From NCBI RefSeq assembly GCF_024713975.1, contig NC_091095.1:702501-766500 (forward strand): 64,000 nt of DNA. Reading direction: 5' to 3'. The notes beneath the pieces were generated by a model. The model worked only from the letters and a program-made list of their open reading frames with translations, was not told the DNA's origin and searched no databases. The stretch comes from Paralichthys olivaceus (taxonomy: Eukaryota; Chordata; Actinopteri; Pleuronectiformes; Paralichthyidae). A program made the position numbers and the translations under genes. Positions 27,933-64,000 of the stretch are shown piece after piece. Position 1 is the stretch's first letter; the number at the start of each line of letters is the position of its first letter.

Positions 27933-27937
<5 letters not shown>

Positions 27938-27970
<33 letters not shown>
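27938..27970 (+). repeat. 33-base poly(G) run
   Basis: Uninterrupted G run 15 bases after the donor at 27922. A second run of 17 G is at 29099-29115, just after the donor at 29080. G-quadruplex formation is plausible, and assembly length is unreliable. Confidence 0.95.
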
Positions 27971-27971
<1 letters not shown>

Positions 27972-28322
27972 GAGGGGGAGAGAGAGAGTCTCTGTAGCTG
28001 CTCTTTGTTTCAGATTTAGTTCTTAATAAATTAATAATTATTTATAAGACTTCAGGAGCCAATCAGATTTCAGCTGTGCCACCTCAGGATCCGCCCCTGG
28101 ACAAGTGGACAGGACAACCTGTCAAAGTGGGACATGTCCTCCATAGACTGCATATAAGATGTTAACACAGTGTTTGTCAAAGTGGGACATGTCCTCGTTT
28201 CTGTCCTCCCATTGTTTTGCATTGGCCTGTGCCCACGTCACGTGACTGCGTGCACGTTAACACAGTGTTTGTCAAAGTAGGGGGAAGATAAGAAAAAAAA
28301 TAAGAAATACAGAAAAATGTAA

Positions 28323-28888
28323 AAGAGACAGAGGGGGAGACAGAAGAAGAGACAGAGGGGGAGACAGCGACAGAGGAAGAGACAGAGGGGGAGACAGCGA
28401 CAGAGGAAGAGAGAAGAAGAGACAGAGGGGGAGACAGCGACAGAGGAAGAGACAGAAGAAGAGACAGAGGGGGAGACAGTGACAGAGGAAGAGACAGAAG
28501 AAGAGACAGAGGGGGAGACAGCGACAGAGGAAGAGAGAAGAAGAGACAGAGGGGGAGACAGCGACAGAGGAAGAGACAGAAGAAGAGACAGAGGGGGAGA
28601 CAGTGACAGAGGAAGAGACAGAAGAAGAGACAGAGGGGGAGACAGTGACAGAGGAAGAGACAGAAGAAGAGACAGAGGGGGAGACAGTGACAGAGGAAGA
28701 GACAGAAGAAGAGACAGAGGGGGAGACAGCAACAGAGGGGGAGACAGAAGAAGAGACAGAGGGGGAGACAGCGACAGAGGAAGAGACAGAAGAAGAGACA
28801 GAGGGGGAGACAGCAACAGAGGGGGAGACAGAAGAAGAGACAGAGGGGGAGACAGCGACAGAGGAAGAGACAGAGGGGGAGACAGCAA
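28323..28888. repeat. GACAGAGGGGGAGACAGCGA minisatellite, array 2
   Basis: About 570 bases of the same unit family as array 1, arranged in higher-order blocks of about 42 bp (GACAGAAGAAGA, GACAGAGGGGGA, GACAGYGACAGAGGAAGA). Confidence 0.95.
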
Positions 28889-29064
28889 AACAAGAGGAAG
28901 AGACTTCATGAGAGTGGAGCGGTCAGTAGGGGAGCTCTGGGTGAACACCGGGCTCCGTGTGCGTCTTGGATTTATCATCTTTCTTCATTCTTCTCTCTCT
29001 CTTTCTTCTGTCTCTCTTTCTTGCTGTCAGTCTTTATCCAGAGCAGCGCATCAAGGACTCGAGT

Positions 29065-30285
29065 ATGAAACTCAGTGTTGGTATGTGGCCCTTCAGGAGG
29101 GGGGGGGGGGGGGGGTACTGTGAGGGGACTTCATGTGTAAGAGACTTTGACCTTTTCATTGGGTTCCAGGTTTTGCTGCTCTGCTGGTGTTTCGGTTCAT
29201 TCTCGTTTCCTCACATCAAAACTGCAGCGTCACGCGACAGCCAGACGATTCATTCAGTTACCAGTTCTCAGAGCCTCACGCCGCCGCCTGTGACATCAGC
29301 TGGGAGGACGCCAACGTAAGTCCTGCACGTCAGTGACAATCCTTAACCACAGAAACTGAGTTTGTTCGGAACTCAGATAAAAACAGTTCTGCAATAAATC
29401 ATCTTCAGAAAAATGTATTTTTAGTTTGGTTTCATCTGTTATCGTTTTGGTCTCATCCACAAATAAAACTGCGAGTTTGAAAAACTTCTTCCAGAGTTCA
29501 GAAAACTACTCAGTGTAAACACGGAGAATCGCCTGGAGTAGTAGTAGTACTGCGAGAGGACCCTAACCCCCCCTCTGTTGATTGGTTATATGTTTTTCAG
29601 AAAACCGTCATCGCCCGCAACTCTAGAAGAAATGAAACTCTGGTGCAGGCTCTGACCAACCGCTCCATCATAACGAAGATCTGCTTTGACTACCTGCTCC
29701 AGGGAAAAGAGTGTTCAGGGGTAAAGAACATCTTCAATATTCAGATTCACACCCTGAGAATCTGAGAACTCATCAACACACAGAGGGAAACAGGCTCAGG
29801 ACGGGTTGTAGGAGCGAGTCAGACTCTGTTTATCGAGACAACTGAAACAGCAGGAATACAAATGTGACCTCAAGTCCACTGCTGAGCCTAAAATTCAACT
29901 TTTCAAATCAGAGACGCAGTCGATAAAAAGGTTTTCATGACGAGCTCACATGAAATGAAGTGAAACACGAGCTTCAGGCTAACGTCAGGTCTCTGGCAGA
30001 GAGTGGGGCGGGGTTTCGGAGCATGCCTGACATTTGTAATGTGCTCTTTCACGTATCTTCTACACCACTCACCTTTTTCTAGTTTCACTTTCATTCCCCT
30101 CTGTTTCTTGTCCTTCTCTTCAGGTCCTGGTGAAAATCGCCTGCTCAGGTGAGAAACACGAGAAAAGAACGTGATTCATGTTATTAGAATTTAAATGTCT
30201 GGTTTGTAGGATACAGGCAGATTTATCTTTGTGTTTCTGTTACCTTAGTTTTATATCTGCATCAGGAGTTTATATACAGTCACTG

Positions 30286-40300: not shown

Positions 40301-41621
40301 GCGTGGGTTCGGAGGCAGACTCCACCACAGCAGAGTCCAACAACTTGAAGGTCTTAGAGTCCCAGGACAGCTTCACAAACAGAGTGTCCTTATCGTCAGA
40401 GTCAGGAAACGCCGCTGCTCCGTCCAGGTGCTTCACCTTCGAGACAAGAACTTACAGGGTCAGTTCACACACACACACATACACACATACACACATACAT
40501 ACATACATACATACATACACACACACATACATACACACACACATACATGTCTCTGTTACATGTTAGTCCAATCAGGAAAAGGCAAAAGTAAAGATTCAAA
40601 GATCAGATTTGAGTGGTCAGACTTTCATTCATGTGTTAAAATAAAGGAGAAGTAACCTGCACAGGTCTGAGGATGGACTCAGCGTTGACCTCGTCGTCAC
40701 AGCTGCGACCTTGATAGTAGAAGATCTCCTGAGGGTGAGGCTCTCTGCCCAGCAGCTTCAGTTTGCTCAGAGGCACTTCAGACACACGAACAAACCACTG
40801 AACCACCGCCTTCTTCTGCTTCCCGCTCTCTGAAACACACGAGACACTTGGTCTTTGTGCTGCGTCGCATCACTCATCGTTTGTCTGTGTCACTTCAGTG
40901 CACTCGATCGGTTTAATCATCGAGTGTTTATCTACGTTCTCAATCTGACGTGTTGTTCTCCGTCTCGTTTTTACTTGTGGTCTTTATAATTACAAGTGAC
41001 ACAGCTCAGCCAATCAAATCCGCTCCAATGAGCATCCGGACACACTGACATCATCACGTGGTCATCGATCCTGTTCCAACATCTCGTTGGACTCACCGTC
41101 ACCGAAGAGCCTGACGACTTTGGCCACGTACGGGTTGTCTTCATCGTCGCCCTCTATGAGGATGTGCTGGCCGGCGTTAATGATGGTGGTCCTCGGGAGA
41201 CCGTCCACACTGATGGACAAGGAGCTGAGACACAATCACACGAGTTCAATATCCAAGCAGGATTTTCACAATAAAAGTGAAAAGGAGAAGCTGGTTTCAA
41301 AAATTCAACTGTTTGTGTCAATAACGATGAGATAATAAATAAATAAACTAACACAATGAAGCCAGACACACAATGAAGCCAGACACACAATGAAGACAAA
41401 CACACAATGAAGACAAACACACAATGAAGCCGAACACACAATGAAGCCGAACACACAATGAAGCCAGACACACAATGAAGCCAAACACACAATGAAGCCA
41501 AACACACCAGACACTTTGGTTCTCACCCAAATTCATACGTCTTCAGCTTCCTGTTGAATCTCAGCGGCTTCCCACCCCACCTGTAAACTCTGCGGACTCT
41601 GAGTCTGGTGAAGTACTTCAT
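34344..41621 (-). CDS. orc1: Origin recognition complex subunit 1
   Basis: Seventeen coding exons, 5' to 3': 41621-41527, 41224-41097, 40829-40657, 40436-39986, 39848-39569, 38958-38896, 38803-38696, 38326-38086, 37531-37425, 37024-36923, 36831-36660, 36483-36376, 36279-36130, 35395-35276, 35193-35039, 34951-34864, 34538-34344. Total 2736 nt, 911 residues (human 861). Exons 1-3 encode the BAH domain, which in the family reads H4K20me2 nucleosomes. The middle exons are Ser/Pro/Arg-rich, with acidic runs near 38210-38290. The AAA+ core has Walker A GVPGTGKT at about 588-595 and Walker B LLVDE at about 672-676, continuing as LDLLW after an intron. Sensor-region and arginine-finger stretches follow ([18 protein letters not shown]). 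The C-terminus is a winged-helix region ending [14 protein letters not shown]. Role: the ATPase subunit of ORC that marks replication origins. A noncoding first exon lies at 44006. Confidence 0.96.
41348..41512. repeat. 17-bp minisatellite in an orc1 intron
   Basis: About nine to ten copies of CACACAATGAAGCCAGA with variants (GACAAA, GCCGAA), between the first two orc1 coding exons and only about 15 bases from the exon at 41527. Confidence 0.94.
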
Positions 41622-45154: not shown

Positions 45155-48100
45155 ATGGCGAACAGAACCGTGAAGGATGCGAACAGCATCCACGGGACGA
45201 ACCCCCAGTATCTGGTGGAGAAGATCATCCGAACCCGAATCTACGAGTCCAAATACTGGAAGGAGGAATGTTTCGGTCTCACGGGTCAGTAGCACGTTAG
45301 CACGTTAGCCAGAGAGCTAACATTAGCTCACGTTGATAACCAGAGGTTTCACTCTGAACTCAGTCGCTTTACTTTAGTGAACAACTGATGAACCGTCACC
45401 AGAATAAAGAGCGATGTTCACTGATACTGGAATCAAACACGTGGAGCCTGAGCTCACCGTGACTCAGGGCTCCTCAGTGAGTCACTGTTTCAGCTTCTTC
45501 AGATATTTGATCTGTTCAAGAGAAGAAGGACAAAGTGAGATGTTACAGCTGCTGCGTGTTGGATCACCACTTCAAGTGAACAAATATTCCCTCTAACATT
45601 TGATGAAACTAGAAGAAGCAGCGAACGAGGTTTTATTTTCTACTTCAATAACCCATCGATGACCTTGGTAGATTTTAAAACAAATAAAAATATGTTAAGA
45701 ATGTTATTTCATTTCATTCCTTCATTGTCCTCAACACACATTCCTGCAGAAACTCTTGTTTGGTGCATGTAGATGTGTTTTATTCTTTGTTTTACCAGAT
45801 AAAGACTGAGAGAAGTTACAAAACTTAAAGCTCCACTGAACCCCAGCGTCCACTTATGTTTTTATCCTGGGACAGTTTTTCCACTTTAATATAAAACTGA
45901 AATAAACTCTTTTCTTCACAGCAGCTTTGTATGTCTTCCTCTTTCCTGTGTTAACGTGACAGACTGTTAGTGTAACGTGTGCATGTCGTCATATCCGCAG
46001 CCGAGCTGGTTGTTGACAAAGCCATGGAGCTGAAGTTCGTAGGAGGAGTTTATGGCGGAAACATCAAGCCCACCCCCTTCCTTTGCCTCGCGCTGAAGAT
46101 GCTGCAGATTCAGCCAGAGAAAGACATCATCGTCGAGTTCATTAAAAATGAGGATTTCAAGTGAGTTCCTTCACGTGTGCAGAGCCGAACACTGCTGCGG
46201 CACTGAATTTGTGAGTCAGACACACAAAAGCTGGACGAATGTAACTTCAGTATGAATACATCGACTCCTGTGGTCGACTTGGAGGAAACGTATTTCAGCA
46301 GATGGCTTGATGTCACAAATAAAAGTTGGATGAATTTAGTCGTGCTTGTTGCCACACAAGCTCAGGTGCTTTCCCCAGTTTTTACTTTGGTGCTTCAATT
46401 TGCATTTACGGTTCTAATTGACTCACAAACGAGCTGCTGTTTGTCACAACAACACATTTAAATACAAATAACCAGTGGTTTTCACGATTCTCTGAGACTT
46501 TTATCATATATTCTATTAATCATCCTAAATGAAGTCGGCCTCTTCTGTGTCCTGGATCGTTCTCCTCATGCTGTCCCCTGGTTTTACTAGATATGTCCGT
46601 CTGCTTGGAGCGATGTACATGAGGTTGACGGGCACCGCAGCGGATTGTTACAAATACCTGGAGCCTCTGTACAATGACTACAGAAAGATCAAGAGTCAGA
46701 ACCGAAACGGAGGTGAGTCGTGAACATGAACAGCTGTGAGTCGAGTGACTTCTCCTCTGGCCACATGAACCACAACAAAGTTAGTCAGACACTTTATTGC
46801 GTCTCTGATTTTGTTGTAGGTGTAAGATGAAATAATTGCAGCATCGTTTCATGGTCTTTCTTTCAGAGTTCGAGTTGATGCACGTTGACGAGTTTATCGA
46901 CGAGCTTCTTCACGCAGAGAGAATGTGTGACATCATTTTGCCCCGGCTTCAGGTATGTCTACATCATGTTCATACGCTCAGCTTGTTTCATAGGCCCACA
47001 CCACTAATGTGTGTGTGTGTGTGACAGAGGAGACAAGTCCTCGAGGAGGCCGAGATGTTGGACCCACGCATCAGCGCCCTGGAGGAAGATCTGGATGAAG
47101 TGGAGACCAGTGATGAAGAAGAAGAGGAAGAAGAGAAGGTGATAAGAGTTTATTAAAGCAACACGATGTATCTTTGACTGAGCAACAGCGCCCCCTGCAG
47201 TCACACATAGTGATTCAGTCTGTTGGGCTCCGTTTCCGAGTGAAGTGGTTTTCATGTTCAGAAAGTAGAACAGCGTGTTTGGTTCCGGTGGTTGAGATTT
47301 TAAAACTTGTTTTTCCACCAGCAGCTGGAGAGACTCCAGACGCCTGAACCACACAGACGTAGTTACCGTGACAACGACAGGCCTCGCCGCTCCCCATCAC
47401 CTCGCTACAGACGCAGCCGCTCACCCAGACGGTTTGTCAACTTACTGAGGGTTTAATAATCTACATTTTTCTGCAGAGAAGACGGAAAGAAAATGTCGAC
47501 ATGTAAATGTTTCAGTGAAGTTATAATACGATTGACTATCAATGGACGATTCGGTTCTAAATCTAATCCTTTGTATTTTTATTTTATGTTTCAGGAGGAG
47601 CCGATCTCCAAAGAGGCGGAGGTTTGTTCGGATGAAATCAGTCGTCAAATGTTTTCAACCTTATTTTGTGGCTCAGGCTCTTTCAGTGATTCTGTTGTGT
47701 TTTGTCAGCCCATCGCCCCGGAGAGAGCGCCATCGCAGCAAGAGCCCCCGCCGCCACCGCAGCCGGTCCAGGGACCGACGCCACCGCTCCAAATCCCCAG
47801 GTAAGAACACATGTCTCGCCCCCCCACTGCCAGTCTGTGGTAATAAAACATAAGTGATAAGTTGTTGTTTTTGTTCATCCAGTCGTTCATTGACTTTAAC
47901 ACAGAGGAAACCATCTTGTGTACATGATGATATGTGATCATGGTTATTTTCATGGTTGTGAACCAGGTCACCACAGAAGCCACCGACACCGCAGCCACTC
48001 AAAGTCTCCAGAGAGGTGAGAGGTTTCAAATCATCGGAGGCGTGAGAGTGAATCAAAATCCTCAGGATCTTCTCCAGTGTGATTTATTATTGGTAACAAA

Positions 48101-48203
48101 GTGTGAATCGTTCGTTTCATTATTTGCACTAAACGTGATTTTGTTCGTTTCTCGTCACAGGAGTTCAAAGAAGAGTCACAAGAAGAGTCGAAGAAACGAG
48201 TGA
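45155..48203 (+). CDS. prpf38a: Pre-mRNA-splicing factor 38A
   Basis: Ten coding exons (45155-45284, 46001-46160, 46591-46712, 46867-46952, 47028-47138, 47322-47431, 47595-47621, 47709-47800, 47967-48015, 48161-48203) total 930 nt, 309 residues; human is 312. Residues 1 to about 180 are the PRP38 domain, opening MANRTVKDANSIHGTNPQYL and containing GGVYGGNIKPTPF and YNDYRKIKSQNRNG. A glutamate run (about 195-204) follows, then an Arg/Ser-rich tail with RSRSPKRR and RRHRSRSRDRRHR. Role: a component of the spliceosomal B complex needed for activation of the tri-snRNP. Exon 7 is only 27 nt. Exon 6 begins at a NAGNAG acceptor (CACCAGCAG), so one glutamine can be included or skipped. AATAAA at 48400-48405 is the likely poly(A) signal. 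Confidence 0.96.
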
Positions 48204-49795
48204 CCTCCTTTCTACTTTTATATCTTTTTTCTTTTTCCCTCGGAGCCTCGTATGAATGTGACGTTGTTTTTATGGTCGTGTCATTCAGAGTCTGTGTGAA
48301 GCTTTTCAGCCTCATTCTGAAAAATCCAAAAACACAGATAGACTGTGGCTGTGAATGGAAACTTCTGAAAGTACAGGAACATTTTCTGTTGTTTGAGTTA
48401 ATAAAGATCCTGATTCATTCGTCCTGAGTCTGTGGAAGTTTGGATTCCTGAGTACGAGCAGAGGATTTTTATCACGTCTCATATAAATATTCACTTGGAG
48501 GTGAAACCATGACACACATTTGTCCTAGAGCGTGTTATTTTAACGCCTCTTGACTCAGAGAGGAACTGATTAAGAGGTCAAAGGTCACGTTGAGACCATT
48601 TTCTGCTGCTGTTTGTCTGTTATTCTTTTTAAAGATTCAACTTTTACTGTAGTTGATCGCTCAGTCAAATAAATGAGGGAACAATGTTCAACCTCAGCTG
48701 TTGAAAATGATTTTGATCTGTAGAAGGGCTGTGTATGAGCTTTCACCTGCGTTAAAGAAATGTTTCTTCTTCTCTTGTCGCTCTCTCACCTCTCTCACTT
48801 CACACGAACAGAGCTGTGGCTCATTCACACTAATTACACACATCCAGGTTTTCTCTGCTGATTCAGCTCAGGTTCAGTTTCTTCAACTTCAGCAGCTCTG
48901 CGTTCACTCTGGATGTTCTAGTTCCAGAAGGTGAGGAATGATTCTGAATCTTGTGAAACAAAGTGTAAACCAGCACCTTTTGAAATCCAAACCTCTGATT
49001 TAATCTCTGGACACAGTTTTTATATTTTCTCAAAGTTCTCATATTTAATATTGACCGCAGCAGCTTTTAGAAGTTGTGGTTTCATCATAAATTTCTTTCA
49101 CCCTGTGAAACACAAAACACAAACAAGGAGGATTTTTATTGTGTTTAATAGAATTAGTACAGCTGAAATAATTTGTGATTAATATTCAGGTTATACAACA
49201 ACTTAACAATTAACATTAAATGTGATGAATAAAATCACTCAAAACATTAGTTGATAGAAACAGAGTCTGGTCTGTTGCTTGTGGACTTTATAAACCTCTG
49301 TTCTTTAATACAATTACACATTAATGATGCACATGACGACTGCAGCCAGTTTCCACTTAATCTGGTTTTTAAGAATGTTTCAATGTTGTTTTCCACTAAT
49401 AATCATCACAATAAGAATGTATGAACATTCCTTACATACCTGTTGTGATTATCAATAACACCATTACATCTATATGCATCACGATTATTATCGTCAATGT
49501 AACAACCACTCCGAAAACAACTGAACAGGAATATAATACAACCACAGAAATGATACTGAAGACGTTTGAACATGAAATATAAGACACAAATACCATTTAT
49601 CAGTTAGACTTTGGGTTGAAGCCCCTCTCGTCTTCAGAACATTCTGGAGCTGAAGTTAACTCAAACATTTCCTCATGTTGACAAAAGAACTGGAAGTTTG
49701 ATGGAGACCATGGAACGGACTTTAATGTGTGTGGATGAGATTTTGTGGATTTATTTCTGATGCATTTTCAGTCTGACCAGAAACTCGTCAACTCT
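48204..49795. other. prpf38a and IFIT convergent 3' regions
   Basis: No additional coding exon. Holds the prpf38a 3' UTR (AATAAA at 48400-48405) and the 3' region of the IFIT gene. On the minus strand AATAAA occurs at 49749-49755 and 49135-49140. The latter is changed by one base in unit B (near 57736). Confidence 0.5.
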
Positions 49796-51464
49796 TCAGT
49801 TGTCCTTTCTGTATCCAATCTTCTCCAGAATCTTGATGCTGTCATTTCGATAGAAGGACTCGTTTGGTATCTCCACCACCTTCATGTGATACTCGATTGA
49901 CCTCTTACGCTGCCGGCGTATGAAGAACAGATGTTTTGCGTAGTGGTTGAAGAGGAACTGTTGCTCAGGAGGATCCAGATCATCTGCGAGGAGCTGCTGG
50001 AAGATCTCCTCAGATTTGGCCAGGGTGTCCTCTGACTTTGCGTAAATACTTGCGAGGTCCATTTTCTTCTTAAAGCTGGAATCAGGATAAAGAGAAATCA
50101 GCTCCTCATAGACACAGATCCCTTTCTTGATCATGCTCGGATCTGGGCACTTCTCAGACCAGATCTTCCATTTGAGGCTGAGTCCGACACATCTTTTCAG
50201 ATAACGTTCCTCTGGATGTTTCTTTAGAGCATCTTCTGCCAAAGCAAGAGCCTCGTCGGGGGAGGTGTAGTCTCTGTAAAACCTTAGTAATGGTTTGAGT
50301 CCACCGTAACTGCTGGCAGGGTTCATCAGAACCTTTGTGGCTAACTCGCGTGCTCTGCATTTGTCTATTTGTCCTTTCTTAGCGAGCTGGTGGAGGTATA
50401 TGACAGCGAGGTACAGGTTCTCTGGATCCTGTTCGGTGGCTTGTCTCAGCTTCTCCATGATGTCGGCCTCGACCCCCTCGCTGTGTTTGGACATGTTAAC
50501 TAACCCCAACACGTGGCTGGTCTGCCACTCCACCATGTCCGGCTGCATCCTGATGGCTCTCTGGAAGTAATCAGCAGCCAGAAGCTTTTTTTCTCTGCTA
50601 AACTTCATCAGAGTCCAGGCTTTTTCAGCGCAGATCTCCGGATGCAGCTCCTCCTGCGATGGATGCTCAGTCATCAGGCCGTCGACCTTTGACAGACAAG
50701 CCAGACTCTCTGCTTGTTCTCCCTGACGATGGTGCAGCCAGGCCTGGTTCCCGTAGGTCACCACCAGCCAGGGACCCTCGTCTGCTCCTCTCATCTGCCT
50801 GAAGGCCTCCGCGGCTCTGCTGAAGAAACTCCTGGCTTCTTCGATGGACCCCAGCTGGAAGTGGACGTACCCCTGCAGGTTGTAAATGTGACCCAGCCAC
50901 TTGTTCCCCTCATTGGTGCCGATGTCCTGCAGCATGTCCCTGATACGGAAAAGATCGGACCTGCTGGGGTCCAGATCCCAGGTGAAGTGGCACTGCAGCG
51001 CCCCCAGTCTGTCCTCCAGTGTCGTGTCACTCTGAGCAGCACTGATGGAATAATAATAATAAAACCAAACATTAAAACACATCATCAGTGGGTCGATGTA
51101 AAATGTTACGAGTGATGAAATAAAAAAATATGAAAATGCTTTTTCCATTAAATGAAAACATTAAAGACAATAAGTCTCCAGTTCCTGATTTTACTTTAAT
51201 TCTGAATTATCTTAACGAACTGTTCATGTCTTATCTGTTTTTAATGCTGCCTTGTGTGACTTCTGTGTCTGTCTTTGAAAAGTTCTCTGTAAATAATTCT
51301 TATAAATATTAGACCCTGGGCTGATGAATAATACATTTCTAATACCAAATGATCAATGACAGCCAATATAGACATTTAAAGAGGATTCCTGAGACGATGT
51401 TATGGACTTGTAGAGGAAAGACTAGTTCTCACTTCTATCGTTATCTGGCCACAGAACATGTTCA

Positions 51465-51521
<57 letters not shown>

Positions 51522-51573
51522 AGTAAGAAAGGAAACACACACACACACACACACACACGTCAAGTAAGAAAGG

Positions 51574-51613
<40 letters not shown>

Positions 51614-51632
51614 AGTAAGAAAGGAAACACAC

Positions 51633-51668
<36 letters not shown>

Positions 51669-51679
51669 AGTAAGAAAAG

Positions 51680-51715
<36 letters not shown>

Positions 51716-51726
51716 AGTAAGAAAGG

Positions 51727-51762
<36 letters not shown>

Positions 51763-51773
51763 AGTAAGAAAGG

Positions 51774-51817
<44 letters not shown>

Positions 51818-51863
51818 AGTAAGAAAAGAAACACACACACACACACACGTCAAGTAAGAAAGG

Positions 51864-51911
<48 letters not shown>

Positions 51912-51984
51912 AGTAAGAAAGGAAACACACACACACACGTCAAGTAAGAAAGGAAACACACACACACACGTCAAGTAAGATAAG

Positions 51985-52022
<38 letters not shown>

Positions 52023-52033
52023 AGTAAGAAAGG

Positions 52034-52071
<38 letters not shown>

Positions 52072-52150
52072 AGTAAGAAAGGAAACACACACACACACGT
52101 CAAGTAAGATAAGAAACACACACACACACACACACGTCAAGTAAGAAAGG

Positions 52151-52188
<38 letters not shown>

Positions 52189-52692
52189 AGTAAGAAAAGA
52201 AACACACACACACACACACACACGATACAAGGACGAAAGAGCACTCCACATACACTTCAAGTAAAGATTTCTAGTAAAGGAAACTATTCCTATCAACAAC
52301 ATGGTTTATCAAACGGTATGAAAGCTGCAGCTGATGAAACGGACTCTTCCACTGCAAGTCTGCCTCTGTGTGTGTTTCTGTGTGTTGTTCACGATAAATC
52401 TTCTACAACAAACCATCAACTTTATTACAAATAGTTAAAAACTAAAGGAAAACACAAATGCAACCAAATGTATTGAACTTTCAAATCTTTTCTGCACCGT
52501 TTATTCTGTGAAATAAAAGTTTTCATATGTCTGTGAATGTCAGTGCTGCTCAAATGCACATTATTCTAGTTGATAAGGTAAAAACAGAGAGAACGTGACG
52601 ATGATACAAACACTGTCACTGACTTAAAGGATCATTCATGTTATTAAACTAGGACAGAATCCTGATGTGTCAATGAAATGAACTCACGTCAT
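49796..52692 (-). CDS. ifit: Interferon-induced TPR protein (IFIT), copy A
   Basis: Two exons as in all IFIT genes: 52692-52688 encodes ATGAC and the large exon 51041-49796 the rest, together 417 codons, 416 residues. The protein is built of TPR helices; recognisable segments are NLQGYVHFQLG, YGNQAWLHHRQGE, CAEKAWTLMKFS, YFQRAIRMQPD and AEDALKKHPEERYLKR. Family knowledge: IFITs are cytosolic, interferon-induced and bind non-self 5' RNA ends to block translation of viral RNA. A C-to-T change makes TGA where copy B has CGA, so copy A lacks the last 16 residues. That small loss may be tolerated. A TATA box and an ISRE precede exon 1. The longer open frame running into the intron up to 51148 is not used. 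Confidence 0.9.
51464..52225. repeat. Composite (AC)n / CGTCAAGTAAGAAAGGAA array, IFIT A intron
   Basis: Sixteen copies of CGTCAAGTAAGAAAGGAA (some AAAAGAA or ATAAGAA) separated by AC runs of variable length. It fills about half of the IFIT A intron. Two further copies lie upstream of the promoter near 52835 and 52885. Confidence 0.96.
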
Positions 52693-52752
52693 CTTCAGAT
52701 GTGTCCTCTGACTCCTGCAGCTGTGTGAACATCAGGCTGTGGATGAAGCAGC

Positions 52753-52786
52753 TTTATACTGAGCTCAGAGGGAAGCTTTCAGTTTC
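52753..52786 (-). promoter_or_regulatory. ifit: TATA box and ISRE of IFIT copy A
   Basis: TTTATA at 52753-52758 reads TATAAA on the minus strand. TTTCAGTTTC at 52777-52786 reads GAAACTGAAA, the ISRE core GAAANNGAAA bound by ISGF3 and IRFs. Both lie about 60-95 bases upstream of the IFIT start codon. Confidence 0.8.
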
Positions 52787-52800
52787 ATGTTCAGAGAAAC

Positions 52801-53257
52801 GGACACACACACACACACAAACAAACACACACACGTCAAGTAAGAAAGGAAACACACACACGCACACACACACACACACACACACGTCAAGTAAGAAAGG
52901 AAACACACACCCACACACTCACACACCCACACACACACACTCACACACCCACACACACACACTCACACTCACACACACACTCACACTCACACACACACAC
53001 ACACTCACACACTCACACACACAAACACACACACACACTCACACACTCACTCACCCACACACACTCACACTCACACACACACACACTCACACACCCACCC
53101 ACACACACACACACTCACACACCCACACACACTCACACTCACACACACACACACACTCACTCACACACCCACCCACACACACACACACTCACACACCCAC
53201 CCACACACACACACACTCACACACTCACACCCACCCACACACACACACACTCACACA

Positions 53258-53310
<53 letters not shown>

Positions 53311-53330
53311 ACACCCACTCACACAAATTA
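52801..53330. repeat. CACTCACACAC-rich satellite upstream of IFIT A
   Basis: About 530 bases of AC repeat with frequent ACTCAC and ACCCAC interruptions, between the IFIT promoter and the LINE. Confidence 0.95.
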
Positions 53331-53332
53331 CC

Positions 53333-56300
53333 CTGAGTGGCTCCGAGGATGGCTGCCGTGTCCCGAGCTCCTCACCAACTCCTCATTTCTAGTGTCGTCA
53401 TGTACTTTTTCTGTTTATTTTAATGTTTTGCAGCATGACACCGCCCGATCATTCAGTCTGATAGAGAACTACTTCTTCTCATCAGGTCGCTGGCAAACAG
53501 CAAAAAACCACCGCGACCAGCAAACATCAACAATGGCTCGTACCCGTGGTTACCTGTCGGCGCTTCACCTGCAGGACACAAAGACGGGGAGGATCCCGGG
53601 CCGGGGTCCTGGTCCGGCTGAGGAAACGCGCAAACCGGCCTCCTCTACCGAGCTTACTTCTGGCTAATGTCCAATCCCTGGATAATAAGCTGGATGAACT
53701 CCGGAGCAGGATGGCGTTTCCACGGGACATGAAGAGACTTGGCTTGACCCCTCGATCCAGGACGGCGCCATTGTCCCGCACGGATTCTCCATTCATCGCC
53801 AGGACCGGACATTAAACTCAGGGAAGAGTAAGGGAGGGGGTGTCTGCTTTAAGATCGACAACAACTGGTGCTCAGATGTGGAGATCATCTCTTCGGACTG
53901 CTCTCCCAGCTTAGAGCACACCATGATCAGATGTTGGCCCTTTTACCTGCAGAGGGAGTTTACACCTGTGGCTCCACCTGCAGTGTATGTGCCGCCGCAC
54001 TGACAACAACACAGGAGGAGCTGCACGGAGTGATGGACAGGACAGAGACTTCGAGGCCGGAGGCTGCATTTATTGTGGCCGGGGATTTTAACAGCAACAT
54101 GAAGAAAGTCCTGCCGAAACACTATCAGCCCGTCAGCTGCCCCACGCGCGGTGGAAATACACTGGACCACGTTTACTCTCCGACCGGTGACACGGACAGT
54201 CCAGACTGGACCGAGCAGTCTGCTTCAGCTCCGCGGAGCGGTGTGTGTTCGAGGAGGAGGACATCAACACACACACAGATAAATGGTCCGAGCCAAACTC
54301 AAAGCTCGGGCTGTCGCGCACAGCGCCGGTGATTTGGATGAATACAGGAACTCCAGGAATGCGCTCCGGAGAGCTGTTAGCAGTGCTAAAAGACAATACA
54401 AGAACAAAGTCTGACTACAAGGGCTCCAACGCTGGAAACATGTGGTCTGGACTAAAAACTATAATATAAAAGAACAACAAGTGGTGCGTCTCTCCCAGAT
54501 GAACTGAACACGTTTTAGAAGAAGAAGATATACTTTCATTGTCACGTTTAACACTTTTACATGCATACATGAAATTGTTCTCCGCATTTAACCCATCCAG
54601 TTGGCACCTGGATGAAACACACATTGACAGATGCCATGTACACACATATACTGGAGCGGTGGGCTGCTGTTGCCAGTTCCCAGGGAACCGCCAACCTTCC
54701 GGTTATTGGATGCTGCTCTACCGCTGAGCCACAGCTGCACGCTTTGAGAGACCCCCGGCTGTGGAGGTACAGAAGGCTCAGGGCCCCTGCCCCCTGGTTC
54801 TACCCAGTGCAGATGTGTGCAGATCCCTAAAAAAGATCAACACACATTAGGGCTCCTGGGCCTGACGGCATCCCTGGCCGTGCTCTCAAGGTGTGTGCAG
54901 TTCAGCTGGCAGAGGTGTTCACAGACATCTTCAACAAGTCACTGCTCCGGTCTAGAGTCCCCACTCGTCTCAAAGAGTCCACCATCATTCCAGTCCCTAA
55001 AAAGACAAAGACCATCTGCCTCAACGACTACCGCCCAGCTGCACTCACCCCCATCATCATGAAGTGCTTTGAGCGGTTAGTCAAACAGTTCATCACCTCC
55101 TCCCTCCCCGACTCACTGGACCCCCTGCAGTTTGCTTACAGGGAGAACAGGTCCACAGCCGACGCCCTCCCCCTCACCCTCCACACTGCCCTCTCCCACC
55201 TGGACCAGAGGAACACGTATGTGAGGATGCTGTTCATTGACTACAGTTCAGCATTCAACACTATTGAGCCCTCCAAGCTCGTCATCAAGCTCAGGGACCT
55301 CGGGCTCAACAGCGCCCTCTGTGACTGGATCCTGAACTTCGTGACGGGCAGACGCCAGGCAGTGCGGATGGGGAACATCACATCCTCCAGCCGGACCCTC
55401 AACACCGGAGCCCCCCAGGGTTGGTGCTCAGCCCTCTCCTCCCTGTTCACGCACGTGGCCACATACAGCTCCAACACCATCATCAAGTTTGCTGACGACA
55501 CCACCGCCATCGGCCTGATCACAGACGGCGACGAGACGCCTACGGAGAGGAGGTCAGAGCCCTGACAGCTTGGTGCCAGGACAACAACCTCCATCTCAAC
55601 ATCAGCAAAACCAAGGAGCTGATTGTGGATTACAGGAAGAAGCAGAGAGACGGACATCGATGGGACTCCGGTGGAGAGAGTCAGCAGCTTCAGGTTCCTC
55701 GGGGTTCACATCACTGAGGACCTGACATGGACTCATCACACCAGAGTCATCACAAAGACAGCTCGTCAGCGGCTCTTCTTCAACATGGACTCCAGGACAC
55801 TCTGCAACTTCTACAGATGCACCATCGAGAGTATCCTGACCGGCTGCATCACGGCCTGGTACGGCAGTTGCACCGCCCTCAAACGTAAGACTCTACAGAG
55901 GGGGGTGAAAACTGCTCAGCACATCACCAGGACGGAGCTACCATCCATGGAGGACCTCTACACCCAGCGTTGTAGGAAGAAGGCTCACAGGATACTGAAA
56001 GACCCCCATCACCCCAGCAACAAACTGTTCTGTCTGCTGCCGTCTGGCAGACGGTACCGCAGCATCCGGACCAGGACCAGACTCAGGGACAGGTTTATCC
56101 CACAGGCTGTAAGACTGCTGAGCTCCTGAGCTCTGTGAAAGTCACTACATCTGTTTATAGCAACATATTCATTTACACTTTATAATATTCATACACACAA
56201 AGAACTATATTTACTTATTTAATCTATCATAATTCTCATTCTGCTACATCCTTCTATTCATCATATTTCTAAGCTACATAAAAATATAATGACTACAATA

Positions 56301-56530
56301 ATTCATATCTGTTCACACCTCCCCATAACTGCTGCTAAATCATGACTGCACATGTTTATATTTCACCTTTTGCACCTTATAATGTTTTATTATAATGTTT
56401 ATCGGCACCTTTTAATGGTTCATTTTATTTTTTGCACTAGTTAATGACATTTGTACTTTCTTGTTTATTTGCACTAGTGTATTGGTATTTTTGTATTTTT
56501 AGTTACTCTTATTTTATTATTTTACACACG
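53333..56530 (+). mobile_element. Degenerate L2-like LINE, unit A
   Basis: A non-LTR retrotransposon in plus orientation. Endonuclease-region fragments (LLANVQSLDNKLDELR, then VAGDFNSNMKK and TLDHVYSPTGDTDS) are followed by reverse-transcriptase pieces. These include [56 protein letters not shown], the catalytic FADD at 55488-55499 and LLPSGRRYRSIR near the end. Frameshifts and stops break it, a 218-bp insertion interrupts it at 54518, and the segment before the sequence at 55782 lacks about 18 bases kept in unit B. Family: CR1/L2 group by motif memory. Not capable of movement. Confidence 0.85.
54518..54735 (+). mobile_element. 218-bp element nested in the LINE, unit A
   Basis: Interrupts the LINE inside a codon stretch that would read FYARFER. 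The inserted block contains AGATATACTTTCATTGTCAC, ATGAAATTGTTCTCCGCATT and ACCGCTGAGCCACAGC, phrases typical of a short fish interspersed repeat. The same insertion is in unit B, so it predates the duplication. Confidence 0.75.
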
Positions 56531-56766
56531 CACGCACACAAACACACACTCACACACACACACACACACTCACTCACGCACACACACACTCACACACACA
56601 ACTTTATGTTTGCTTTTGGATGAAATCAGTCGTGAGTCATCGGAGGCGTGAGAGTGAATCAAAATCCTCAGGATCTTCTCCAGTGTGATTTATTATTGGT
56701 AACAAAGTGTGAATCGTTCGTTTCATTATTTGCACTAAACGTGATTTTGTTCGTTTCTCGTCACAG

Positions 56767-56809
56767 GAGTTCAAAGAAGAGTCACAAGAAGAGTCGAAGA
56801 AACGAGTGA
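56767..56809 (+). pseudogene. Relic of prpf38a exon 10
   Basis: Exact copy of the last coding exon of prpf38a with its acceptor (GTCACAG) and stop codon, but with no upstream exons. It is a by-product of the tandem duplication. The copied AATAAA is at 57006-57011. Confidence 0.92.
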
Positions 56810-58356
56810 CCTCCTTTCTACTTTTATATCTTTTTTCTTTTTCCCTCGGAACCTCGTATGAATGTGACGTTGTTTTTATGGTCGTGTCATTCTGAGTCTG
56901 TGTGAAGCTTTTCAGCCTCATTCTGAAAAATCCAAAAACACAGATAGACTGTGGCTGTGAATGGAAACTTCTGAAAGTACAGGAACATTTTCTGTTGTTT
57001 GAGTTAATAAAGATCCTGATTCATTCGTCCTGAGTCTGTGGAAGTTTGGATTCCTGAGTACGAGCAGAGGATTTTTATCACGTCTCATATAAATATTCAC
57101 TTGGAGGTGAAACCATGACACACATTTGTCCTAGAGCGTGTTATTTTAACGCCTCTTGACTCAGAGAGGAACTGATTAAGAGGTCAAAGGTCACGTTGAG
57201 ACCATTTTCTGCTGCTGTTTGTCTGTTATTCTTTTTAAAGATTCAACTTTTACTGTAGTTGATCGCTCAGTCAAATAAATGAGGGAACAATGTTCAACCT
57301 CAGCTGTTGAAAATGATTTTGATCTGTAGAAGGGCTGTGTATGAGCTTTCACCTGCGTTAAAGAAATGTTTCTTCTTCTCTTGTCGCTCTCTCACCTCTC
57401 TCACTTCACACGAACAGAGCTGTGGCTCATTCACACTAATTACACACATCCAGGTTTTCTCTGCTGATTCAGCTCAGGTTCAGTTTCTTCAACTTCAGCA
57501 GCTCTGCGTTCACTCTGGATGTTCTAGTTCCAGAAAGTGAGGAATGATTCTGAATCTTGTGAAACAAAGTGTAAACCAGCACCTTTTGAAATCCAAACCT
57601 CTGATTTAATCTCTGGACACAGTTTTTATATTTTCTCAAAGTTCTCATATTTAATATTGACAGCAGCAGCTTTTAGAAGTTGTGGTTTCATCATAAATTT
57701 CTTTCACCCTGTGAAACACAAAACACAAACAAGGAGGATTTTGATTGTGTTTAATATAATTAGTACAGCTGAAATAATTTGTGGTTAACATTCAGGTTAT
57801 ACAACAACTTAACAATTAACATTAAATGTGATGAATAAAATCACTCAAAACATTAGTTGATAGAAACAGAGTCTGGTCTGTTGCTTGTGGACTTTATAAA
57901 CCTCTGTTCTTTAATACAATTACACATTAATGATGCACATGACGACTGCAGCCAGTTTCCACTTAATCTGGTTTTTAAGAATGTTTCAATGTTGTTTTCC
58001 ACTAATAATCATCACAATAAGAATGTATGAACATTCCTTACATACCTGTTGTGATTATCAATAACACCATTACATCTATATGCATCACGATTATTATCGT
58101 CAATGTAACAACCACTCCGAAAACAACTGAACAGGAATATAATACAACCACAGAAATGATACTGAAGACGTTTGAACATGAAATATAAGACACAAATACC
58201 ATTTATCAGTTAGACTTTGGGTTGAAGCCCCTCTCGTATTCAGAACATTCTGGAGCTGAAGTTAACTCAAACATTTCCTCATGTTGACAAAAGAACTGGA
58301 AGTTTGATGGAGACCATCCAACGGACTTTAATGTGTGTGGATGAGATTTTGTGGAT

Positions 58357-60073
58357 TTATTTCTGATGCATTTTCAGTCTGACCAGAAACTCGTCAACTC
58401 TTCGGTTGTCCTTTCTGTATCCAATCTTCTCCAGAATCTTGATGCTGTTATTTCGATAGAAGGACTCGTTTGGTATCTCCACCACCTTCATGTGATACTC
58501 GATTGACCTCTCAGACTGCTGGCACATGAAGAACAGATGTTGTGCGTAGTGGTTGAAGAGGACCTGTTGCTCAGGAGGATCCAGATCATCTGCAAGGAGC
58601 TGCTGGAAGATCTCCTCACATTTGGCCAGGGTGTCCTCTGACTTTGAGTAAATATTTGCGAGGTCAATTTTCTTCTTAAAGCAGGAATCAGGATAAAGAG
58701 AAATCAACTCCTCATAGACACAGATCCCTTTCTTGATCATGCTCGGATCTGGGTCTGACTTCTCAGACCAGATCTTCCATTTGAGGCTGAGTCCGACACA
58801 TCTTTTCAGATAACGTTCCTCTGGATGTTTCTTTAGAGCATCTTCTGCCAAAGCAAGAGCCTCGTCGATGGAAATGTAGGCTCTGTAAAACCTTAGTAAT
58901 GGTTTGAGTCCACAGTAGCAGCTGGCAGGGTTCATCAGAACCTTTGTGGCTAACTCGCGTGCTCTGCATTTGTCTATTTGTCCTTTCTTAGCGAGCTGCT
59001 GGAGGTATATGACAGCGAGGTACAGGTTCTCTGGATCCTGTTCGGTGGCTTGTCTCAGCTTCTCCATGAGGTCGGCCTCGACCCCCTCGCTGTGTTTGGA
59101 CATGTTAACTAACCCCAACACGTGGCTGGTCTGCCACTCCACCATGTCCGGCTGCATCCTGATGGCTCTCTGGAAGTAATCAGCAGCCAGAAGCTTTTTT
59201 TCTGTGCTAAACTTCATCAGAGTCCAGGCTTTTTCAGCGCAGATCTCCGGATGCAGCTCCTCCTGCGATGGATGCTCAGTCATCAGGCCGTCGACCTTTG
59301 ACAGACAAGCCAGACTCTCTGCTTGTTCTCCCTGACGATGGTGCAGCCAGGCCTGGTTCCCGTAGGTCACCACCAGCCAGGGACCCTCGTCTGCTCCTCT
59401 CATCTGCCTGAAGGCCTCCGCGGCTCTGCTGAAGAAACTCCTGGCTTCTTCGATGGACCCCAGCTGGAAGTGGACGTACCCCTGCAGGTTGTAAATGTGA
59501 CCCAGCCACTTGTTCCCCTCATCGGTGCCGATGTCCTGCAGCATGTCCCTGATACAGAAAAGATCGAACCTGCTGGGGTCCAGATCCCAGGTGAAGTGGC
59601 ACTGCAGCGCCCCCAGTCTGTCCTCCAGTGTCGTGTCACTCTGAGCAGCACTGATGGAATAATAATAATAAAACCAAACATTAAAACTCATCATCAGTGG
59701 GTCGATGTAAAATGTTACGAGTGATGAAATAAAAAAATATGAAAATGCTTTTTCCATTAAATGAAAACATTAAAGACAATAAGTCTCCAGTTCCTGATTT
59801 TACTTTAATTCTGAATTATCTTAACGAACTGTTCATGTCTCATCTGTTTTTAATGCTGCCTTGTGTGACTTCTGTGTCTGTCTTTGAAAAGTTCTCTGTA
59901 AATAATTCTTATAAATATTAGACCCTGGGCTGATGAATAATACATTTCTATTACCAAATGATCAATGACAGCCAATATAGACATTTAAAGAGGATTCCTG
60001 AGACGATGTTATGGACTTGTAGAGGAAAGACTAGTTCTCACTTCTATCGTTATCTGGCCACAGAACATGTTCA

Positions 60074-60144
<71 letters not shown>

Positions 60145-60155
60145 AGTAAGAAAGG

Positions 60156-60191
<36 letters not shown>

Positions 60192-60235
60192 AGTAAGAAA
60201 GGAAACACACACACACACACGTCAAGTAAGAAAAG

Positions 60236-60301
<66 letters not shown>

Positions 60302-60314
60302 AGTAAGAAAGGAA

Positions 60315-60346
<32 letters not shown>

Positions 60347-60841
60347 AGTAAGAAAAGAAACACACACACACACACGATACAAGGACGAAAGAGCACTCCA
60401 CATACACTTCAAGTAAAGATTTCTAGTAAAGGAAACAATTCCTATCAACATGGTTTATCAAACGGTATGAAAGCTGCAGCTGATGAAACGGACTCTTCCA
60501 CTGCAAGTCTGCCTCTGTGTGTGTTTCTGTGTGTTGTTCACGATAAATCTTCTACAACAAACCATCAACTTTATTACAAATAGTTAAAAACTAAAGGAAA
60601 ACACAAATGCAACCAAATGTATTGAACTTTCAAATCTTTTCTGCACCGTTTATTCTGTGAAATAAAAGTTTTCATATGTCTGTGAATGTCAGTGCTGCTC
60701 AAATGCACATTATTCTAGTTGATAAGGTAAAAACAGAGAGAACGTGACGATGAAACAAACACTGTCACTGACTTAAAGGATCATTCATGTTATTAAACTA
60801 GGACAGAATCCTGATGTGTCAATGAAATGAACTCACGTCAT
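58357..60841 (-). CDS. ifit: Interferon-induced TPR protein (IFIT), copy B
   Basis: Exon 1 codes ATGAC at 60841-60837 and exon 2 spans 59650-58357. Together they make 433 codons, 432 residues, close to the usual fish IFIT length. The TPR segments match those of copy A. The C-terminus continues past the copy A stop as NRRVDEFLVRLKMHQK. Compared with copy A it has one extra codon (KSDPDP against KCPDP) and about 30 amino-acid replacements, crowded into the second half. One block near 58515-58540 changes five of six codons (IRRQRK to MCQQSE). Residues 46-150 are identical. The TATA box and ISRE are conserved. The most likely functional member of the pair. Confidence 0.92.
60075..60375. repeat. 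Composite (AC)n / CGTCAAGTAAGAAAGGAA array, IFIT B intron
   Basis: Same array as in unit A but with only five CGTCAAGTAAGAAAGGAA copies, showing rapid length change after duplication. Confidence 0.95.
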
Positions 60842-60901
60842 CTTCAGATGTGTCCTCTGACTCCTGCAGCTGTGTGAACATCAGGCTGTGGATGAAGCAG
60901 C

Positions 60902-60935
60902 TTTATACTGAGCTCAGAGGGAAGCTTTCAGTTTC
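60902..60935 (-). promoter_or_regulatory. ifit: TATA box and ISRE of IFIT copy B
   Basis: TTTATA at 60902-60907 and TTTCAGTTTC at 60926-60935, unchanged from copy A in sequence and spacing. Confidence 0.8.
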
Positions 60936-60952
60936 ATGTTCAGAGAAACGGA

Positions 60953-61135
60953 CACACACACACACAAACAAACACACAAACACAAACACACACACACACA
61001 CACACTCACCCACACCCACACACTCACCCACACCCACACACACACACTCACACACACACACACACACACACACAAACACTCACACACCCACACACACACA
61101 CTCACACTCACACACACACTCACACAAACACTCAC

Positions 61136-61178
<43 letters not shown>

Positions 61179-61312
61179 CACACACACCCACTCACACTCA
61201 CACACACACACACTCACACACCCACACACACCCACACACACTCACACTCACACACACACACACTCACACACCCACACACACACACACACACACACCCACA
61301 CACACTCACACA
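60953..61312. repeat. CACTCACACAC-rich satellite upstream of IFIT B
   Basis: About 360 bases, shorter than the unit A counterpart and without the two CGTCAAGTAAG copies. Confidence 0.95.
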
Positions 61313-61319
61313 AATTACC

Positions 61320-64000
61320 CTGAGTGGCTCCGAGGATGGCTGCCGTGTCCCGAGCTCCTCACCAACTCCTCATTTCTAGTGTCGTCATGTACTTTTTCTG
61401 TTTATTTTAATGTTTTGCAGCATGACACCGCCCGATCATTCAGTCTGATAGAGAACTACTTCTTCTCATCAGGTCGCTGGCAAACAGCAAAAAACCACCG
61501 CGACCAGCAAACATCAACAATGGCTCGTACCCGTGGTTACCTGTCGGCGCTTCACCTGCAGGACACAAAGACGGGGAGGATCCCGGGCCGGGGTCCTGGT
61601 CCGGCTGAGGAAACGCGCAAACCGGCCTCCTCTACCGAGCTTACTTCTGGCTAATGTCCAATCCCTGGATAATAAGCTGGATGAACTCCGGAGCAGGATG
61701 GCGTTTCCACGGGACATGAAGAGACTTGGCTTGACCCCTCGATCCAGGACGGCGCCATTGTCCCGCACGGATTCTCCATTCATCGCCAGGACCGGACATT
61801 AAACTCAGGGAAGAGTAAGGGAGGGGGTGTCTGCTTTAAGATCGACAACAACTGGTGCTCAGATGTGGAGATCATCTCTTCGGACTGCTCTCCCAGCTTA
61901 GAGCACACCATGATCAGATGTTGGCCTTTTTACCTGCAGAGGGAGTTTACACCTGTGGCTCCACCTGCAGTGTATGTGCCGCCGCACTGACAACAACACA
62001 GGAGGAGCTGCACGGAGTGATGGACAGGACAGAGACTTCGAGGCCGGAGGCTGCATTTATTGTGGCCGGGGATTTTAACAGCAACATGAAGAAAGTCCTG
62101 CCGAAACACTATCAGCCCGTCAGCTGCCCCACGCGCGGTGGAAATACACTGGACCACGTTTACTCTCCGACCGGTGACACGGACAGTCCAGACTGGACCG
62201 AGCAGTCTGCTTCAGCTCCACGGAGCGGTGTGTGTTCGAGGAGGAGGACATCAACACACACACAGACGCGGATAAATGGTCCGAGCCAAACTCAAAGCTC
62301 GGGCTGTCGCGCACAGCGCCGGTGATTTGGATGAATACAGGAACTCCAGGAATGCGCTCCGGAGAGCTGTTAGCAGTGCTAAAAGACAATACAAGAACAA
62401 AGTCTGACTACAAGGGCTCCAACGCTAGAAACATGTGGTCTGGACTAAAAACTATAATATAAAAGAACAACAAGTGGTGCGTCTCTCCCAGATGAACTGA
62501 ACACGTTTTAGAAGAAGAAGATTTACTTTCATTGTCACGTTTAACACTTTTACATGCATACATGAAATTGTTCTCCGCATTTAACCCATCCAGTTGGCAC
62601 CTGGATGAAACACACATTGACAGATGCCATGTACACACATATACTGGAGCGGTGGGCTGCTGTTGCCAGTGCCCAGGGAACCGCCAACCTTCCGGTTATT
62701 GGATGCTGCTCTACCGCTGAGCCACAGCTGCACGCTTTGAGAGACCCCCGGCTGTGGAGGTACAGAAGGCTCAGGGCCCCTGCCCCCTGGTTCTAACCAG
62801 TGCAGATGTGTGCAGATCCCTAAAAAAGATCAACACACATTAGGGCTCCTGGGCCTGACGGCATCCCTGGCCGTGCTCTCTAGGTGTGTGCAGTTCAGCT
62901 GGCAGAGGTGTTCACAGACATCTTCAACAAGTCACTGCTCCGGTCTAGAGTCCCCACTCGTCTCAAAGAGTCCACCATCATTCCAGTCCCTAAAAAGACA
63001 AAGACCATCTGCCTCAACGACTACCGCCCAGCTGCACTCACCCCCATCATCATGAAGTGCTTTGAGCGGTTAGTCAAACAGTTCATCACCTCCTCCCTCC
63101 CCGACTCACTGGACCCCCTGCAGTTTGCTTACAGGGAGAACAGGTCCACAGCCGACGCCCTCCCCCTCACCCTCCACACTGCCCTCTCCCACCTGGACCA
63201 GAGGCACACGTATGTGAGGATGCTGTTCATTGACTACAGTTCAGCATTCAACACTATTGAGCCCTCCAAGCTCGTCATCAAGCTCAGGAACCTCAGCTCA
63301 ACAGCGCCCTCTGTGACTGGATCCTGAACTTCCTGACGGGCAGACGCCAGGCAGTGCGGATGGGGAACATCACGACACCGGAGCCCCCCAGGGTTGGTGC
63401 TCAGCCCTCTCCTCCCTGTTCACGCACGTGGCCACATACAGCTCCAACACCATCATCAAGTTTGCTGACGACACCACCGCCATCGGCCTGATCACAGACG
63501 GCGACGAGACGCCTACGGAGAGGAGGTCAGAGCCCTGACAGCTTGGTGCCAGGACAACAACCTCCATCTCAACGTCAGCAAAACCAAGGAGCTGATTGTG
63601 GATTACAGGAAGAAGCAGAGAGACGGACATCGACGGGACTCGTGTGGAGAGAGTCAGCAGCTTCAGGTTCCTCTGGGTTCACATCACTGAGGACCTGACA
63701 TGGACTCATCACACCAGAGTCATCACAAAGACAGCTCGTCAGCGGCTCTTCTTCCTCCGCAGGCTGCGGAGGTTCAACATGGACTCCAGGACACTCTGCA
63801 ACTTCTACAGGTGCACCATCGAGAGTATCCTGACCGGCTGCATCACGGCCTGGTACGGCAGTTGCACCGCCCTCAACCGTAAGACTCTACAGAGGGGGGT
63901 GAAAACTGCTCAGCACATCACCAGGACGGAGCTACCATCCATGGAGGACCTCTACACCCAGCGTTGTAGGAAGAAGGCTCACAGGATACTGAAAGACCCC
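61320..64000 (+). mobile_element. Degenerate L2-like LINE, unit B (runs off window)
   Basis: Copy of the unit A LINE, with FADD at 63461-63472. It carries its own small deletions near 63291 and 63374 but keeps CTCCGCAGGCTGCGGAGG at about 63754-63771, which unit A lost. The reading frame is broken as in unit A. Confidence 0.85.
62511..62728 (+). mobile_element. 218-bp element nested in the LINE, unit B
   Basis: Same insertion site and length as in unit A, with a few substitutions. Confidence 0.75.

Follow-up and report, generated by a model that had tools for sequence, protein, structure and literature searches.

A tandem pair of IFIT genes in Paralichthys olivaceus differs mainly within an island over the C-terminal TPR region

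The 64,000-nucleotide stretch of Paralichthys olivaceus DNA analyzed here (contig NC_091095.1, positions 702,501 to 766,500; hereafter, the window) carries two neighboring IFIT genes, copies A and B, both on the reverse strand and each contained within one of two tandem units (Table 1). The units are ~8.6 kb long, with unit 2 following directly upon unit 1 (head at 56637). The left edge of unit 1 falls inside the last intron of prpf38a, and unit 2 bears an orphan copy of the last coding exon of that gene; because of these two features, the arrangement fits a true segmental duplication. The window contains no N letters, and copies A and B are real tandem duplicates. Outside the coding sequence, the two units diverge by ~0.7% (0.68%; 35 substitutions over ~5,160 bp), with the microsatellites at 51421-52239 and 52721-53399 and the stretch 56007-56636, whose counterpart is not present in the window, excluded from the counts. 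By segment, we counted 11/1720 substitutions in the 3' flank (left), 3/379 upstream, 2/~480 in the middle and 19/~2580 on the right (i.e., 0.4 to 0.8%). An earlier reading made from the letters alone (hereafter, the sequence-only reading) had placed the flank at 48701-49180 near 1% on the strength of about four differences; there are 5.

Both copies are predicted to be two-exon genes with a tiny first coding exon (ATGAC|GTGAGT at 52692 in copy A and 60841 in copy B, with CAG|T acceptors at 51041 and 59650, respectively), and a tiny first coding exon followed by a second exon is the typical IFIT layout. A pattern scan yielded one candidate interferon-stimulated response element (ISRE)-like motif, GAAACTGAAA, per copy, at an equal distance from both ATGs. 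Since a Pfam scan of the copies returned generic TPR models only, their assignment to the IFIT family rests instead on comparisons with relatives, and the flounder copies show a TPR superhelix resembling that of human IFIT1 and IFIT5. Copy B has its best database match in a P. olivaceus protein named IFIT1-like (P0001), which differs from both A and B. The limits of exon 2 given by the sequence-only reading were borne out for both copies, although that reading had missed a premature TGA in copy A (CGA in copy B). This stop lies 15 codons ahead of the stop codon of copy B, the counterpart of which ends at 49751 in copy A, such that copy A is shorter by 15 residues and lacks the final helix predicted by the copy B model (exon-2 protein residues 416-429). 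As a separate observation, exon 2 encodes 12 cysteines in copy B versus 7 in truncated copy A, and copy B has Cys at codons 280, 282, and 359, where 47, 48, and 50 of 52 relatives, respectively, have Ser.

Table 1. Positions of the genes, units and sequence features in the window
Feature	Position	Strand	Basis
Tandem unit 1 (prpf38a last coding exon, IFIT copy A, microsatellites, LINE-like fragment)	48031..56636		blastn self-comparison, repeats, left boundary read
Tandem unit 2, with IFIT copy B, running off window end	56637..64000		self-comparison, repeats
IFIT copy A exon 2, up to premature stop	49796..51041	-	open reading frame (ORF); Pfam TPR matches
IFIT copy B exon 2, open through to stop codon	58357..59650	-	ORF; Pfam TPR matches
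Premature TGA stop, copy A (CGA in copy B)	49796..49798	-	sequence comparison
Divergent island, copy A, C-terminal TPR part, codons 280-452	49798..50311	-	26 substitutions (nucleotide alignment; 25 by codon) and codon indel
Counterpart island, copy B	58404..58920	-	codon and nucleotide alignment
Copy A exon 1 (ATGAC, then GTGAGT donor)	52688..52692	-	pattern scan; agrees with P0001 start MTAAQSD
Copy B exon 1 (ATGAC, then GTGAGT donor)	60837..60841	-	pattern scan; agrees with P0001 start MTAAQSD
ISRE-like GAAACTGAAA, copy A (putative)	52777..52786	-	pattern scan; 94 bp upstream of ATG
ISRE-like GAAACTGAAA, copy B (putative)	60926..60935	-	pattern scan; 94 bp upstream of ATG
prpf38a, upstream part	45976-47024	+	PRP38 domain on three ORFs
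prpf38a last coding exon, within unit 1, ending ...SSKKSHKKSRRNE	48162..48203	+	reading frame, acceptor
Orphan prpf38a last-exon copy in unit 2	56768..56809	+	unit offset 8606; same letters translated at offset
orc1	34347..41621	-	tblastn with Paralichthys olivaceus ORC1 (P0121)

Alignment of exon 2 of the two copies by codon revealed 31 substitutions and one codon indel, close to the roughly 32 substitutions and single codon indel counted by eye in the sequence-only reading; the nucleotide alignment scores one extra base next to the indel, and the 32nd substitution, at 51079, is intronic. These changes are very unevenly distributed. More specifically, the nucleotide alignment gave 6/723 differences (0.8%) in the 5' part of exon 2 versus 26/568 (4.6%) in its 3' part, and 26 of the 46 substitutions across the 3.39-kb alignment are packed into 520 bp, a density matched by none of 5,000 random placements. 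The outcome is an island of ~515 bp at about 5% divergence that ends close to the end of the coding sequence, beyond which the 3' flank returns to 0.6%. Thus, both the clustering of changes in the 3' part of exon 2 and the faster change of the second half of the exon relative to its flanks (4.6% versus 0.4 to 0.8% for the non-coding segments), as proposed from the letters, are upheld by the full alignment.

The same reading had recognized only two synonymous changes and had taken their scarcity as a sign of diversifying selection or of gene conversion from a divergent IFIT. Two codons are indeed purely synonymous (351, CTG/TTG; 388, CTC/CTT), but the double-hit codons 280 (AGT/TGC) and 295 (ACC/ATT) each hide one synonymous step, and the Nei-Gojobori (NG86) tally is accordingly 4 synonymous versus 27 nonsynonymous changes (nonsense change included; dS 0.0144, dN 0.0275). 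Scoring whole codons, with 2 of 31 changes synonymous, gave a binomial p of 0.001-0.03 (0.005-0.06 when taken as 27 events), but this was dropped as the main test because the double-hit codons conceal those two steps. With all four included, the binomial probability of 4 or fewer of 31 ranges from 0.21 to 0.02 for neutral synonymous fractions of 0.205-0.303, depending on the mutation spectrum tried. Likewise, a pairwise codon maximum-likelihood fit of the Goldman-Yang type, with a one-sided likelihood ratio test against omega 1, returned an omega of 2.07 (p = 0.078) for the whole of exon 2 and of 1.69 (p = 0.17) for the tract formed by the island, and third codon positions carry 6 of the 31 changes (p = 0.068), or 5 of 25 within the tract (p = 0.11). 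The direction of the synonymous shortage was therefore correctly perceived, but the shortage is unconvincing by itself and had been overstated.

A firmer contrast emerged when the tract was compared with the non-coding sequence of the units. Nonsynonymous change in the tract (21/439) runs at 7 times the non-coding rate (p = 4e-10), and the excess persists when the nonsense change is left out (20/439, p = 2e-9). Relaxed constraint or pseudogene decay alone is ruled out by this 7-fold excess of amino-acid divergence. Since amino-acid change above the neutral rate is at issue, selection, imported diverged sequence, an older tract, or a mutation hotspot is needed; the last of these may still apply, although the 3' flank of the tract is quiet. 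The synonymous rate in the tract may also be raised: 4/122 (3.3%) versus 0.7% in non-coding sequence (p = 0.012); exon 2 has 0/157 in its 5' part. Raised synonymous change would favor import, an older tract or a hotspot over selection, and the data lie in between.

The uneven pattern recurs in the third flounder sequence. Dividing the protein into an N part (residues 3-243) and a C part (residues 244-416), we found 4/241 residue differences between P0001 and copy A in the N part and 18/171 in the C part; the figures for P0001 and copy B are 6/241 and 24/172, and those for A and B 6/241 and 19/171, respectively. The corresponding C/N ratios are 4.5 (A-P0001), 6.3 (B-P0001), and 5.6 (A-B). In contrast, the other 53 rows of the alignment, of which P0001 is one, form 1,378 pairs with a median ratio of 1.29 and a maximum of 3.31, and a ratio of at least 4 occurs in none of the 128 pairs less than 20% diverged (52 rows, without P0001). 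Tested against 1.29, the flounder ratios gave p = 0.0039 (A-B), 0.0011 (A-P0001), and 0.0003 (B-P0001), and, against 1.82 (95th percentile of all pairs), p = 0.035, 0.012, and 0.006 in the same order. We polarized derived states using 52 other IFITs as outgroups. Copy A and P0001 both have a derived Cys334 and lack codon 335 (the residue is absent there in 1/52 outgroups); copy B and P0001 have in common derived Cys359, Ser371, and probably Cys380; and A and B probably share Gly446. In this protein-level comparison, shared residues thus group the three sequences in conflicting ways over a stretch of about 110 codons. The conflict would have a simple explanation if short tracts were converted between copies of the array; the alternative is repeated mutation under selection.

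The changed residues occupy positions at which family members vary (p = 8.5e-6, and p = 0.002 within the C part). In the structural model, 8 of the 21 changed positions in 244-416 would lie outside helices (of at least 4 residues) and 6 of 21 at the two end residues of a helix, i.e., 14/21 outside-or-end positions among changed residues versus 74/173 among all residues of that part. The sequence-only reading had singled out a run in which five of six codons are altered, and this run stands at codons 411-416 (49921-49904), equivalent to residues 375-380, which are modeled as the end of helix 358-375, a loop, and the start of helix 379-391. Residue pairing with human IFIT1 is uncertain because identity is only 24-25%. 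By that distant alignment, W147, K151, and Y218 of human IFIT1 are kept, whereas R187 is replaced by N and R38 by M. Whether the changes line the RNA channel had been posed as a check in the sequence-only reading. Of 12 contact or pocket residues of IFIT1 named in a review, represented here, like the other cited literature, by excerpts, only D34 aligns with a changed site, namely codon 68 of the N part. To the extent that so distant a pairing shows, the changed residues mostly miss the known RNA pocket. Codon 380 falls in the helix aligned with IFIT1 residues 364/366 in TPR7, reported to influence the activity of primate IFIT1 from a position away from the RNA tunnel (PMC12543323); we regard this as a parallel only.

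The reading that we favor, with a probability of roughly 0.55, is that of a young tandem IFIT array in which short gene conversions would shuffle C-terminal TPR variants, whose diversity selection probably maintains. Whole ~8.6-kb units would have been copied, presumably by unequal exchange, beside prpf38a and orc1, which would account for their near-identity. Short variant tracts may have been passed among array copies by gene conversion, turning the 3' part of exon 2 into an island of variation, and selection would probably favor copies with differing C-terminal parts. The mosaic would accordingly stem from conversion and not from repeated mutation, selection (presumably viral) would maintain it, and it might alter RNA or partner recognition. 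Where the sequence-only reading had offered diversifying selection or gene conversion, the evidence favors a mixture of both: selection, because nonsynonymous change in the tract outpaces non-coding change 7-fold, the island stops close to the coding end, and the changes are at family-variable sites; and conversion, because synonymous change in the tract is possibly raised, derived residues conflict, and the layout is similar to that described, in the excerpts consulted, for mammalian IFIT1/IFIT1B.

Several points weigh against this reading. A dN/dS of ~2 is not significantly greater than 1 and cannot by itself carry the claim of selection, for which the evidence is therefore the rate contrast and the recurrence of the pattern in the third sequence. 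Synonymous change in the tract amounts to only 2/122 (p = 0.21) with clean codons only, i.e., with double-hit codons set aside. The flanks are imperfectly even, with single 150-bp non-coding windows holding up to 4 substitutions versus up to 9 in the island. In the protein comparison, the boundary at residue 244 was picked post hoc, and the three flounder pairs are interdependent. Moreover, 32 of the 40 variable positions (codon-335 deletion included) received no call by the thresholds used and 3 are private to B, so that firm mosaic sites are few (334; 359 and 371; others weaker) and could reflect recurrent mutation. The window offers no donor, as a tblastn search to E 1 found no further IFIT copies in it (A, B, and one chance-level hit). 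Finally, copy A is truncated, its premature stop removing the last predicted helix, and may be in decay.

Among other explanations, the one that survives best, and which we consider unlikely but worth serious attention, is positive selection on point mutations alone, with C-terminal TPR changes fixed singly in both copies and no exchange between them. It is in keeping with nonsynonymous change at 7 times the non-coding rate alongside clean synonymous change that agrees with non-coding sequence, with an island that halts near the coding end, and with the variability of the changed sites across the family; IFIT1 is also fast-evolving in mammals, including at residue 366, according to the excerpted report (PMC12543323). 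However, derived residues that conflict once P0001 is considered would need recurrent mutation, and the tract's synonymous rate with double-hit steps counted (3.3%, p = 0.012) and its omega of 1.69 likewise count against selection acting alone. Rather improbable, in our view, is a more specialized arrangement whereby the flounder array would keep a dedicated pool of C-terminal IFIT variants, shuffled among genes alike in all other respects by short conversions confined to ~500 bp, in a cassette-like germline diversification of an antiviral RNA sensor inside a single genome and population. We give slightly less credence still to neutral, homogenizing conversion only, under which the copies would be older (about 3%, as at synonymous sites of the tract), the flanks and the 5' part of the exon recently homogenized, and the 3' part an escapee. 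The recurrent 5' conversion of mammalian IFIT1/IFIT1B, seen there at synonymous sites too (PMC4887208, in part), has a similar layout, the tract omega is indistinguishable from 1, and the N/C split is alike in three flounder sequences; yet such conversion must have evened out more than 5 kb of the unit, to the left and right of the tract (0.4-0.8%), while sparing only ~515 bp of coding sequence, and the many conserved C-terminal residues predict an omega below 1, compared with estimates of 1.7-2.1 (not significantly greater than 1). Least credible is an artifact, in which the assembler placed two alleles or haplotypes of a single locus in tandem as A and B, or the differences are consensus errors: a non-coding divergence of 0.7% could be allelic, and the right end of unit 2 and the far junction lie outside the window, but the window is free of N letters, unit 1 starts in a prpf38a intron with an orphan exon in unit 2, random errors would not gather in one island, and P0001 shares states sometimes with A and sometimes with B.

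The flounder pair can be set beside IFIT genes of other vertebrates, for which the excerpts cited provide the following picture. Daugherty et al. 2016 (PMC4887208) compared IFIT1 with IFIT1B in cat and ferret, reported 97-98% identity for the 5' part against 62-63% for the 3' part, and put this down to gene conversion that recurs at the 5' end; the C-terminus of mammalian IFIT1/IFIT1B is reported to set target specificity (PMC4887208). Similarly, the neighboring flounder copies are near-identical at the 5' end and divergent at the 3' end (0.8% versus 4.6%; and so in all three flounder protein pairs). In contrast to the cat and ferret genes, the flounder 3' part is still about 95% identical; the 3' flank is also close, unlike in the mammalian pairs, so that the divergent part is an island; and the proposed conversion in the flounder draws on three sequences, of which two are available as DNA. 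The flounder pair resembles the mammalian IFIT1/IFIT1B pattern at a very young stage, in a fish. As in fast-evolving mammalian IFIT1, where functional C-terminal sites lie off the RNA tunnel (PMC12543323), change in the flounder extends to codon 380 in the distantly aligned helix, although the mammalian work drew on between-species orthologues, site tests, and mutagenesis, whereas the flounder case is a single within-genome pair. In fish, IFIT genes have undergone lineage-specific multiplication, and many are virus- or interferon-induced (PMC3688568, PMC13030082); the multiplied flounder genes agree with such expansions. The portions of those two accounts represented here describe no divergence islands or conversion between young tandem copies and do not name the flounder array, and none of the papers listed by our literature search reports that array, which is no proof of its absence from print. 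The pair is thus a fresh instance of an already known pattern, the gene reshuffling and probable virus-driven change of mammalian IFITs, and the mammalian conversion pattern would extend to fish. As very young copies differing mainly in the C-terminal TPR region, A and B represent natural swaps, whose comparison could reveal the role of the C-terminus in the choice of RNA or partner while avoiding noise from older divergence.

Among the neighboring genes, the stretch holding the last exon of prpf38a (48031-48244) shows zero substitutions relative to its unit 2 counterpart. For orc1, compared by tblastn with the 911-residue P0121 (residues 33-37 uncovered), mismatches are confined to the ends of hits, and each is mismatch-free in the adjoining hit, a match that points to Japanese flounder or a species that this gene does not tell apart from it. 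Elsewhere, low-complexity repeats at 24883-29123 generate spurious long ORFs that are Ser/Leu/Pro-rich or Glu/Thr-rich. Long arrays that are rich in (TG)n/(CA)n and include a TTTCCTTTCTTACTTGACG motif lie in the IFIT intron (51420-52240, and the unit 2 counterpart), in unequal copy number between units (14 versus 5 TTTC-type motifs), and further arrays lie upstream of exon 1 (52750-53330, and the unit 2 counterpart). A long interspersed nuclear element (LINE)-like fragment on the forward strand (53868-56129 and 61855-64000) was duplicated along with each IFIT unit; the unit 1 copy, which was the one tested, matches reverse transcriptase (PF00078), and its endonuclease match is weak and below the cut-off.

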